From NCBI GenBank assembly GCA_022574255.1, contig JACZSK010000021.1, positions 1 through 34,808 of the forward strand: 34,808 nt of DNA, read 5' to 3'. A program made the translations under genes and the position numbers. The stretch's first letter is position 1, and each line of letters opens with the position of its first letter. Positions 10,217-14,134 of this stretch are shown one piece after another. Under the pieces are notes generated by a model that saw only the letters and a list, made by a program, of their open reading frames with translations, was not told the DNA's origin and made no database searches. Source of the stretch: Pseudomonadota bacterium. GTDB lineage: Bacteria; Pseudomonadota; Alphaproteobacteria; Sphingomonadales; SMXR01.

Positions 10217-10857
10217 ACCGCCCGATAGCAACCAAACCCCTCGATCTTGCCGCCGCCGTGGAACCGCGGGCGTCCGCGCGCTCACCGCTTTCAGCGATCA
10301 TGCTGCTCTTTTTCGCGGCGACCATCGTTTTCGAGTTTCAGTTCGACTGGGGCGGGCTGATCAGGGATGCGGCCGAGGCCCCTGCGAGCGGCCAATCGGC
10401 GGATTTTACGGCGCTGGAGCCAGCGCGCATCGACCGGCGCTCCGACTATTCCGAATATCTTCGCGCACCGATTTTTCTCGCCACCAGGGAGCCGATTTCC
10501 CTGCCCAACATGGGACGAACGGCGGCAGTTGGCCGCTCCCGCGATCTCGGGCTCGAGCTGTTCGGCACCATACTGTCCGAGGGCGAGCCGGTCGCCCTGA
10601 TGAAGACCATCCCCAACGGTGATGTGGTCCTGCTGAGGCGAGGCGAGGAACTGGGCGGCTGGACCCTGCTTGAAATAGAGGATCGGCTGGTCCGGCTGCA
10701 GCGTGGCGGTGAGCTTTTCGAACTATACCTCGACCCGGATCGCGGCCCCGAACAAACGGGGCCAGGCGGCGCCGGCGATACCAGTCTGCTTCTGGGGGCG
10801 GGCAGGAAATTAATACCAATGCAAAGCACAACAGACAGGAAGCGCAGTCATGAGTAA
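10213..10857 (+). CDS. GspC/GspN-like type II secretion protein (HR-domain, no PDZ)
   Basis: Probable inner-membrane connector to the secretin. A single membrane helix lies at ~27-44 (LSAIMLLFFAATIVFEF), followed by a linker and a small beta domain: LGLELFGTILSEGEPVALMKTIPNGDVVLLRRGEELGGWTLLEIEDRLVRL is one continuous segment of which the GTILSEGEPVAL and WTLLEIEDRLVRL parts match the homology region (HR) of GspC. No PDZ or coiled-coil follows, and the protein ends at 214 aa. In Xps-type operons a protein of this kind sits between gspM and gspD and is called GspN/XpsN; I therefore leave the symbol open. Its stop overlaps the secretin start by 8 bases. The role is inferred from the domain and position. 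Confidence 0.75.
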   Translation: MNRPIATKPLDLAAAVEPRASARSPLSAIMLLFFAATIVFEFQFDWGGLIRDAAEAPASGQSADFTALEPARIDRRSDYSEYLRAPIFLATREPISLPNMGRTAAVGRSRDLGLELFGTILSEGEPVALMKTIPNGDVVLLRRGEELGGWTLLEIEDRLVRLQRGGELFELYLDPDRGPEQTGPGGAGDTSLLLGAGRKLIPMQSTTDRKRSHE

Positions 10858-13015
10858 TAAATTTTCAGCGAGCAACCGGTCCGGATCCAAACGGGTCGTC
10901 CGGTCTTTGTCACGCCTTTTGCTGACGCTCGCCATGGCAGGCGGGCTGACGGCATGCGAATCATTGGGGCTGGACGGCCAACGTCCCGGCGCGGGCCGGC
11001 CTGTGGCAGATGCCGCAACCTTTCGTGGCGCGCCAGCGGACGACCAGACCCCCGCAGAGGATGCAGGCAGCGCCGACACGGCGTCCGATGCCCAGCGTTT
11101 TGTACGCCGGGGCACAGGAATATTCATCAACCCCAATGCCGTGGCACAGCCTTCCATCACCACCAGCGCGGAGAACAGGACGGCGATCAATTTCCGGGAC
11201 GCGCCTCTGGCCACGGTGGTGCAGGCTATTCTGGGCGATATTCTGGACCTGCCCTATGCCATAGACCCCAGCATTCAGGGAAATATTAGCCTGCAGACCA
11301 GCGACGACCTGCCCCGTGACGCCCTGATCCCTATCCTCGAAGGCGCGCTTCGCCTGAACGGACTGGTGCTGTTCCGCACCAACGGCATTTATCAGATTGC
11401 CCCCAGTGAGACGGTGGCCCGGAATTTGGGCGTGGGGCCGGTATACGCGGCGCCGGGGCGCGGCGATCCCGGCTTCGGCATCAGCGTGATTCCGCTGCGC
11501 TACGCATCGGCCCTCGAGGTGGACAAGCTGATCCGACCGTTCCTGAACGGTGCGGTGACCGTGCAGGCCGACGCCAACAGGAACCTGTTTCTGGTTGCCG
11601 GTTCAGGGCCAGCCAGGGCCAACACCTACGACCTGATCAAGACCTTCGATGTGGACTGGATGGCGGGTATGTCGATGGGCATGTTCCCGCTGCAGACCGC
11701 CGACGCGGTGACGGTGGCCGAGGAACTGCAGACTATTCTGCTCGGCGAGACGGCGTCGATGTCCGGTATCATTCGCTTTGTGCCGGTTGAGCGCCTGAAT
11801 TCTGTTTTGGTGATTACCCACGAGGCCAGCTACCTGGAGATGATCGAGGAATGGATCGACCGCCTGGACAGGGGCGCCGGCCAGACAGATGGTCGCAGCC
11901 TGCATGTCTACCGGATTCAGAATGGACGCGCCACGGACCTGGCTTTCGTGCTGAGCCAGCTTTTTGATGCGACGCCGCAGGCTGCGCGCGGCGGGCAGGT
12001 GAGCCCCGGCCTGGAACCGAAAACGATCTCCACCAGCGGCTTCCAGAGCAACACTGGAACCGCGCAGGAGCCCACCGTTGTGCAGAGGAGCGCACCGGCA
12101 ATCAATGGTTTTTCCACCGGCGAGGGCGGCCTGCGGATTATTGCTGACGACACCAACAACGCGCTGGTCATTCTTGGTACGGAATCCGACCACCGCCTGA
12201 TCCGCTCGGCGCTGAGAGACCTCGACGTGGCCCCGCTGCAGGTTCTGATCGAAGCAACCATCGCGGAAGTTACGCTGACCGACGAACTGCGGTTCGGCCT
12301 GCAATGGTTTTTCAACTCTGGCAACAGTGATGTCACTCTCAGCAGTTTTTCCGATGGCACGGTCGGCCCGGTATTTCCCGGCTTCAATTATGTGTTCGAT
12401 AACAATAGCGACGTCCGGATCGTGCTCGATGCTTTGGAAGACATAACGGACGTGCAGATTATTTCGTCGCCGCAGTTGATGGTGCTGAACAACCATTCGG
12501 CGCTGCTGCAGGTTGGCGATCAGGTGCCGGTGGCTGTACGGTCTTCGGTAAGCACGCTTGACGACACCGCCCCGGTGGTCAATTCCATCGAGTTCAAGGA
12601 TACCGGCGTCATCCTTAGGGTCACGCCCCGGGTGAACGCCGGCGGGCTGGTGATGATCGAGATCGAGCAGGAAGTCTCCTCCGTCGTTTCGACCACCACT
12701 TCGGGCATCGATTCCCCCACCATCCAGCAGCGCCGCATTAAAAGCACCGTTGCGGTACGCTCGGGCGAGACAGTGGCCCTTGGCGGACTGATCCAGGAAA
12801 AGGTCCAGAGACGGGAGAGCGGCATACCCTATCTCTCGCGCATCCCGATCCTCGGTAACTTGTTCAAGACAAACAAGGACATAAACATCAGAACCGAGTT
12901 GCTGATCCTTATCACGCCGCGGGTTATCGCCAACTTTGAGGAGGCGCGTGAGGTCACCGCGGAATTGCGTTCGCGGCTGCATGCGATCGAGGGCATGACG
13001 ATTAGCACCGATTAG
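10850..13015 (+). CDS. gspD: type II secretion system secretin GspD
   Basis: Outer-membrane channel of the type II system. At 721 aa it is the usual length. The N-terminus is a lipoprotein signal (LLTLAMAGGLTAC), so this secretin is probably lipidated and may self-target to the outer membrane. An N0 domain follows (NFRDAPLATVVQAILGDIL, ~105-185), then N1-N3 repeats (VIPLRYASALEVDKLIRPFL; MFPLQTADAVTVAEELQTIL; VYRIQNGRATDLAFVLSQLF), and the secretin core from ~450 (VLIEATIAEVTL, QIISSPQLMVLNN, VGDQVPV, NSIEFKDTGVILRVTPRV, AVRSGETVALGGLIQ, ELLILITPRVI). The stop codon TAG is also the first three bases of the mobile element that follows, so the last codon context may have changed at insertion. 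Confidence 0.96.
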   Translation: MSNKFSASNRSGSKRVVRSLSRLLLTLAMAGGLTACESLGLDGQRPGAGRPVADAATFRGAPADDQTPAEDAGSADTASDAQRFVRRGTGIFINPNAVAQPSITTSAENRTAINFRDAPLATVVQAILGDILDLPYAIDPSIQGNISLQTSDDLPRDALIPILEGALRLNGLVLFRTNGIYQIAPSETVARNLGVGPVYAAPGRGDPGFGISVIPLRYASALEVDKLIRPFLNGAVTVQADANRNLFLVAGSGPARANTYDLIKTFDVDWMAGMSMGMFPLQTADAVTVAEELQTILLGETASMSGIIRFVPVERLNSVLVITHEASYLEMIEEWIDRLDRGAGQTDGRSLHVYRIQNGRATDLAFVLSQLFDATPQAARGGQVSPGLEPKTISTSGFQSNTGTAQEPTVVQRSAPAINGFSTGEGGLRIIADDTNNALVILGTESDHRLIRSALRDLDVAPLQVLIEATIAEVTLTDELRFGLQWFFNSGNSDVTLSSFSDGTVGPVFPGFNYVFDNNSDVRIVLDALEDITDVQIISSPQLMVLNNHSALLQVGDQVPVAVRSSVSTLDDTAPVVNSIEFKDTGVILRVTPRVNAGGLVMIEIEQEVSSVVSTTTSGIDSPTIQQRRIKSTVAVRSGETVALGGLIQEKVQRRESGIPYLSRIPILGNLFKTNKDINIRTELLILITPRVIANFEEAREVTAELRSRLHAIEGMTISTD

Positions 13016-13310
13016 GGTCAGGACCCATTAATCCGGTGCAATTCTGTTTGACAAGGAAGAGCGAATGCAAGAATACAGCCCGCTGACAGGGCCACACCCT
13101 TTCAAGAGCTGGATCCGCAGCAGTCGGGCTTCCTTGTCAAACCCGGACCGGTCGGCTATTTCCACTCGAAACTTCAAAGGGCTGCGTTCCTTTGCGGCTG
13201 GGAATGCGTCGGAACCCCTTGAAAACCATGAAGGTTTCCTGCGGAGTGCCTCCTGTTCCAGCCAAAAAGGCAAGCAGCAGAATGGATCGTATTAATGAGT
13301 CCTGACCCTA
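13013..13310. mobile_element. non-autonomous MITE-like element between gspD and gspK
   Basis: About 298 bp bounded by imperfect terminal inverted repeats. The left end reads TAGGGTCAGGACCCATTAAT (13013-13032); the reverse complement of the right end (13291-13310) reads the same with one mismatch, and weaker similarity extends to ~33 bases. The terminal GGGTCAGGACCC is itself a small hairpin. Inside is a perfect 14-bp inverted repeat, GTTTGACAAGGAAG (13046-13059) with CTTCCTTGTCAAAC (13129-13142). No transposase is present; the 76-aa ORF inside is not convincing. Ends of this kind recall elements moved by IS200-like/REP-associated tyrosine transposases, but that is from memory. It provides the gspD stop and the predicted gspK start. 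Confidence 0.75.
13046..13142. repeat. internal 14-bp inverted repeat of the mobile element
   Basis: GTTTGACAAGGAAG at 13046-13059 and its exact reverse complement CTTCCTTGTCAAAC at 13129-13142 enclose 69 bases. As RNA this would form a long hairpin between the gspD and gspK messages. Confidence 0.8.
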
Positions 13311-14134
13311 GGTCATATCGCAGCCGCCTGGGCGGCAATCATTCCGGTTTCGCGGGCAGGGATTTGCGCCAGCGTGGCATCGCGCTGGTGATGGTATTGT
13401 GGCTTACCCTGGTCTTGTCGGTAATGGCCGTCTCGGTGGTCAGGATCGCGCGCGGCGATGTACGCATTGCCTTCAACGTGCAGGAGGCAGCCAAGGCAGG
13501 GGCGCTGGCCGACGGCGGGATTTACCTGGCCGTTGCGGCGCTGATGAAGCCAGAGGCAGATGACCCATGGCCCCTCGATGGGTCACCACGGGATTTCATC
13601 ATTGCCGGCGAACTGGTCACCATATCCATCCGCGACGAAGGCGCCAAGATCGACCTGAATACAGCGAATTATGAAATGCTGGAAGCAGCCGCCCTGGCGG
13701 TGGGGATGGACGGGCAAGAGGCGTCAAAGGTTGCCGACGCCCTTATTGCCGAACGCCTGGCCCGTATCGAGCCGGTCGAGGCAAACCTATCGATGAGGCC
13801 GCCAAGGCCGACTGGCCGGTTTGCAACCATAAGGGAACTTCAGCCGGCGGCGAACCTGAACAGGGCGGACTACAAGCGTCTGAGGAATCTTGTCACTGTT
13901 TATGTGGGCCAGCGCGCACCGAGCGGCATCACCCCCGCCCTTGTCCGGCGATCAACGCTTACCCCCCCGGCCCAGGTCCTGAACAGCGCCCAATCCCGCT
14001 TCCGGGCCAGGTCCAGCACCTTTGCCATCATATCCAGAGTGAGGCTGGGCAGCGGCGCCAGCCATGAGCGCTTTGCAGTGGTTCGGCTGTCGGCAGGGAG
14101 CGCCGCCGGCTACCAGGTCTTGCACTGGGACTAA
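13295..14134 (+). CDS. gspK: minor pseudopilin GspK
   Basis: Largest minor pseudopilin, capping the pseudopilus tip. The prepilin site is RQRG|IALVMVLWLTLVLSV; as is known for GspK, the +5 residue is not Glu (here Met). The large soluble domain includes the helix-hairpin-helix-like region with KIDLNTANYEML and a later ANLNRADYKRLRNLVTVYV. Length 279 aa is at the short end for GspK. The only ATG before the hydrophobic helix lies inside the right terminal repeat of the upstream mobile element and has no clear Shine-Dalgarno; a TTG at 13364 is an alternative but has its purine run too close. Expression may therefore depend on the element. Its place after gspD, instead of between gspJ and gspL, is also unusual. 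Confidence 0.88.
   Translation: MSPDPRSYRSRLGGNHSGFAGRDLRQRGIALVMVLWLTLVLSVMAVSVVRIARGDVRIAFNVQEAAKAGALADGGIYLAVAALMKPEADDPWPLDGSPRDFIIAGELVTISIRDEGAKIDLNTANYEMLEAAALAVGMDGQEASKVADALIAERLARIEPVEANLSMRPPRPTGRFATIRELQPAANLNRADYKRLRNLVTVYVGQRAPSGITPALVRRSTLTPPAQVLNSAQSRFRARSSTFAIISRVRLGSGASHERFAVVRLSAGSAAGYQVLHWD

Follow-up and report, generated by a model that had tools for sequence, protein, structure and literature searches.

An IS427-type MITE lies in the stop codon of gspD and probably provides a new start codon for gspK

Introduction

The RUP element of pneumococcus, a MITE related to IS630-Spn1, and the Correia/NEMIS elements are described as small, non-autonomous, hairpin-forming, multi-copy and mostly intergenic, and the pneumococcal repeats as enriched between convergent genes (PMC2229807, PMC3049150). 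Some MITEs are already known to fuse to reading frames (review PMC10969869). For MITEAba12 of Acinetobacter, stops in all frames were noted, as were start codons close to the ends, from which a fusion with adjacent genes could arise (PMC6382973), and QMITE2 of Coxiella can change the end of a coding frame, that of enhC, by adding C-terminal residues (PMC5896051). The insertion sequences of the IS427 group, such as IS1248 and ISPpa6 of Paracoccus, have short terminal repeats, and most of them are flanked by 2-bp target repeats (PMC3281130 Table 2). Autonomous copies are approximately 830–865 bp long, 832–865 bp in Paracoccus, and contain two overlapping transposase frames (PMC3281130).

Here we analyse an element at the gspD–gspK junction of a type II secretion operon of a Sphingomonadales bacterium. 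The window is the whole stretch of DNA that was analysed, 34,808 nucleotides long. The element is very probably an IS427-type MITE of about 298 bp, which lies in the native TTAG stop of gspD, re-forms the TAG, and most likely provides an ATG from its terminal repeat as the new start of gspK. It shares its general build with RUP and Correia/NEMIS, which belong with another transposase family and for which exact stop-codon placement is not described in the available portions of the reports (PMC2229807, PMC3049150). MITEAba12 has comparable start codons, but it generates 9-bp duplications, no sequence preference was reported for it, and start fusion was only suggested (PMC6382973), whereas here three genes have probably had their starts replaced, two of them with comparative support. 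Unlike QMITE2, the window MITE re-forms the native stop without a change of the protein. It differs from the IS427-group insertion sequences in its length and in the lack of a transposase. In the literature searched, which comprised titles open without subscription, we found no account of IS427-type elements that are placed in stop codons or replace start codons.

Results and discussion

Structure of the element at the gspD–gspK junction

The gap between gspD and gspK is 279 nt, whereas the other neighbouring genes of the operon that were checked overlap or are less than 20 nt apart. The original prediction placed a mobile element exactly at this junction, in an operon with spacings otherwise under 35 bases, and both statements are borne out. 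The segment 13013–13310 is a 298-bp MITE copy without a transposase gene, and the open-reading-frame list of the window contains no frame of at least 100 residues inside it. Its ends, GGGTCAGGACYCATTAAT, belong to terminal inverted repeats of 28 nt that are 86% complementary (Table 1). The window contains two occurrences of the end motif, whereas 0.04 would be expected by chance. A search of the organism's own genome for further ends, proposed together with the prediction, returned 21 matches, and none for a reversed control. The 298-base unit is present in about 13 copies with identities of 74–98%, some of them cut by contig ends, which rules out an ordinary spacer whose repeats occur nowhere else.

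For the RNA of the element, the predicted fold is one long hairpin with an energy of −125 kcal/mol (z = −5.9), and an Rfam search with the MITE gave no match. The element is short, lacks a transposase, and has terminal inverted repeats, dispersed copies and a target-site duplication. This bacterial MITE is of a known type, and its unusual property is that its ends would keep both adjacent reading frames intact.

Table 1 Features of the gspD–gspK junction
Feature	Position	Strand	Evidence
gspD (secretin), ends with TAG 13013–13015	10850–13015	+	Pfam Secretin 2e-49; C-terminus position as in G004
Left copy of the TA target duplication	13013–13014		Flank pattern common to 40 elements
Left terminal inverted repeat, TA included	13013–13040	+	Repeat analysis
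MITE body, GGGTC...GACCC, no transposase gene	13015–13308		Multi-copy in own genome; end-motif matches
Internal hairpin, arms 13046–13068 and 13120–13142	13046–13142		Repeat analysis
Right terminal inverted repeat, TA included	13283–13310	−	Repeat analysis
Putative start codon in right repeat, ATGAGTCCTGACCCTA, M-S-P-D-P in frame with gspK	13295–13310	+	Sequence reading
gspK frame (pseudopilin)	13295–14134	+	Pfam PilX_N 2e-7; start analysis
Right copy of the TA target duplication, followed by G	13309–13310		Flanks read directly

Target site and transposase partner

Ends very similar to those of the MITE are present in Pelagimonas, Sulfitobacter and other Rhodobacteraceae, in Phyllobacterium, Sphingopyxis and Sphingomonas, and in one Desulfovibrionaceae metagenome-assembled genome. 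The insertion rule was derived from 40 paired elements of six other genomes (80 strand-normalised flanks). In 79 of the 80 flanks, TA is preceded by C or T, according to the pattern YTA-GGGTC...GACCC-TAR, and TA is present on both sides of 35 of the 40 elements. The left and right flanks are unlike each other outside the TA; the duplication is therefore TA, and a 4-bp duplication of YTAR is ruled out. Thus, the target of the family is YTAR, the duplication TA, and the element GGGTC...GACCC. Two other arrangements were observed in the organism's own genome. At L008 (contig C173, 12398–12540), two element ends stand back to back, GGGTCCGGACCC adjoining TAGGGTCAGG, which suggests that one copy inserted beside another. 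At L046 (contig C174, ~32223), a solo end remnant is located directly upstream of a small-terminase-like phage gene; its repeat ATG is in frame, but the phage gene has its own GGAGG and ATG.

Three transposase-containing elements link the family to a partner. The end of L123 is identical to that of the MITE over 18 bases (96% over 24) and is followed by a frame for a DUF4096 transposase of the IS4/5 family. L112 of Pelagimonas is a degenerate 834-bp element with ends similar to those of the MITE and a DDE_Tnp_1 frame. The third, L164, is an IS427-type insertion sequence of about 830 bp in the organism's own genome (contig C151, region 1516–1920), which encodes DUF4096 and DDE frames and is flanked by CTA...TAG. 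Because of these transposase genes, and of the lengths and 2-bp repeats of the Paracoccus IS427 group, the MITE family is assigned to an IS5-family, IS427-type DDE transposase as its probable partner, which would move the MITE in trans. As for the specific enzyme that moved the gspD–gspK copy, L164 is a loose candidate, since its ends, GGGTGTGGACTCAATTGA and GGGTCTGAACCCAATTT, are only loosely similar to those of the MITE. The outward codon of L164 is TTG instead of ATG at both ends.

IS630 elements are also known for a TA or CTAG target. An IS630 partner was considered for this reason and dropped, since the linked transposases are the DUF4096 and DDE_Tnp_1 proteins of IS5. The original prediction looked for a Y1 transposase as the partner, and the small, hairpin-rich, intergenic element does resemble single-strand elements of the Y1/REP type, which would have inserted beside a tetranucleotide. 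Nevertheless, the long terminal inverted repeats, the TA duplication and the linked IS5-type DDE and DUF4096 genes contradict it and make such an origin exceedingly improbable. Members of IS200/IS605 (Y1) or REP/RAYT have subterminal hairpins without terminal repeats and no target duplication, which is not the organisation found here, and membership in these groups was rejected.

The stop codon of gspD is native

When the flanks of the MITE are joined, the empty site reads GAT-TAG-GTC, and the C-terminus of GspD has the position found in G004, a relative from the same family. The original prediction that the element supplies the gspD stop is thus wrong or imprecise: the TAG at the left end does close gspD, but the stop is native, with the TA duplicated and the G contributed by the element. 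The target was the native TTAG; the G that opens the element restores TAG at the left junction, so that GspD is unchanged. A target of YTAR in a gene frame that reads TAR at the site implies that the codon was already a stop.

Stop codons as insertion sites across the family

Insertion into a stop codon is not particular to gspD. The prediction regarded the junction as the one place where the element does no harm, yet about half of the examined copies from other genomes are located in stop codons. Genes were called with our own simple codon model, and according to it 19 of the 40 elements (21 of 80 ends) from the six other genomes are exactly in a stop codon. At all 21 ends, the base on the opposite side of the element is A or G, which makes their stops native, 14 of them inferred as TAG and seven as TAA. 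Incoming open frames of at least 100 codons are in the stop phase in 26 cases, versus 6 and 8 in the other two phases. In 400 kb of Pelagimonas (G065), 835 YTAR sites are available, of which 83 are at stops, 385 coding and 367 intergenic. Elements of this genome are at stops in 11 of 22 cases, compared with 10% of all YTAR sites (83/835, P = 2e-6) and 18% of the non-coding ones (83/450, P = 8e-4).

An excess over the available sites, even the non-coding ones, is what would be expected if the transposase actively recognised the context of stop codons. We consider such stop-codon targeting quite unlikely, since some elements are located inside 5' coding regions, the loss of harmful insertions explains the remainder of the excess, and full-length insertion sequences of G062, whose termini are similar and whose target is the same, have 2 of 27 ends at stops (Fisher P = 0.056 versus the MITE ends). 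The lack of a clear stop excess in these full-length elements, although a weak comparison, makes it seem likelier that the excess results from the choice of YTAR targets combined with survival than from recognition of stop codons.

Several individual copies were inspected. L011 (contig C90 of the own genome, 62261–62528) occupies a junction that resembles one within an operon; its TAG is exactly the end of the upstream gene, and the ATG of the downstream gene starts one base past the right TA. L049 (genome G007, C126, ~1165–1431) is a diverged copy between convergent genes, one of them MazG-like by eye, and both of its ends are their stop codons. Similarly, L138 (G065) and L152 (G062) lie between convergent genes that both end exactly at the two TAGs of the element. 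The empty site of L138, the cmk-like copy of Pelagimonas, had no match across the junction in 40 relatives, where only one gene side was matched.

A putative new start of gspK, with parallels in rnr and rlmN

The right repeat encodes ATG-AGT-CCT-GAC-CCT (MSPDP) followed by A, in frame with gspK, and the ATG at 13295 opens the PilX_N frame, as had been predicted. In G004, which belongs to another genus of the same family and whose GspK is 41% identical, the gspK start is located within gspD, 26 bases upstream of the end of that gene. From an in-frame TGA as far as TTG 13364, the gspK frame of the empty site contains no ATG, GTG or further TTG. The ATG of the MITE is most likely the new gspK start, to judge from the reading of the frames (MSPDP-RSYRS...).

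The only other canonical gspK start before the hydrophobic segment is TTG 13364. It is a real, though less probable, possibility that gspK is translated from this native codon, the element being only a spacer and the repeat ATG in frame by chance. A start at TTG 13364 would give MRQRG/IALV, a prepilin leader of normal length, and some copies (L002, L158) are located just upstream of genes that have their own start. The ribosome site of the TTG is stronger than that of the repeat ATG but too close, with AGGGA only 1 nt before the codon. The 18 codons upstream of the TTG form an open, Arg-rich frame, as in G004. Furthermore, in rnr and rlmN an element stands between the gene and the start of the relatives, with the corresponding repeat ATG in frame.

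These two genes were named from reading of the proteins and on strong same-frame matches to relatives, and topA was named by eye. One copy (L006, contig C99, ~11847–12146) separates topA from the body of rnr (RNase R), which its repeat ATG opens as MSPDP-KSAPFPTK. In the same-family relative G002, rnr begins with GTG ten codons before a conserved PSK motif; the own genome has CTG exactly at this position, beyond the element. The GTG of G004 is within two codons of it. Another copy (L009, contig C57, 5987–6285) lies within the first codons of rlmN, with the native ATG across the element, and its repeat opens MNLDP-SFTDPK in frame. The empty site reads ATG-CAA-CAG-ACT-AGT-TTT, matching the rlmN start of G002 (MQIPGPIDP).

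The parallel separation of rnr and rlmN from their native starts by other copies strengthens the replacement of the gspK start that was originally predicted, the use of the starts being read from sequence. Since the frames are intact and the native starts missing, we infer that at least rnr and rlmN, and probably gspK, now begin in a MITE repeat. Three such starts are a small number; one in three would be in frame by chance, and their shared frame could reflect selection among survivors. A systematic search at elements in the other genomes found no clear in-frame start, and most outward open frames there were antisense shadows.

Proposed sequence of events and expression of gspK

Based on these observations, a course of the insertion can be proposed. 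The MITE would have inserted into the TTAG that holds the gspD stop, duplicating TA. This would have cut gspK off from the translation start that it used before. As in G004, that earlier start probably overlapped the end of gspD. The native start would then have been lost, and the ATG of the right repeat would serve as the gspK start.

The ribosome site before gspK appears poor, and it is plausible that the hairpin occludes the start. Since a strong predicted hairpin encloses the region of the start, the expression of gspK may be reduced. A more severe outcome would be that the insertion silenced gspK, perhaps with the whole secretion system decaying. The start lacks a good ribosome site, and a consensus scan of the element found no sigma-70-like promoter or terminator. 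However, gspK and its neighbours are open frames, and the core genes rnr and rlmN tolerate the same arrangement with intact frames; we therefore regard silencing as doubtful.

Implications for the family

The terminal repeats of the IS427-type MITE family may act as a frame-preserving adaptor. The target rule and the initial G would always re-form the stop of a gene that ends at the site, and the start of a gene that is cut would be replaced with an ATG plus four codons. This would account for the survival of the elements in operons and even among the opening codons of core genes (rnr, rlmN, gspK), whose N-termini would be rewritten; we consider the evidence for and against this proposal evenly balanced. 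Small transposons would persist in operons because, owing to their ends, those insertions that most often survive hardly alter the protein sequence, which offers a countable reason why some of them persist in tightly packed bacterial operons. Where automatic annotation places a gene start next to such an element, the start may be a true replacement and not a mistake of the annotation. Mobile elements may also be able to create new N-termini in core genes.
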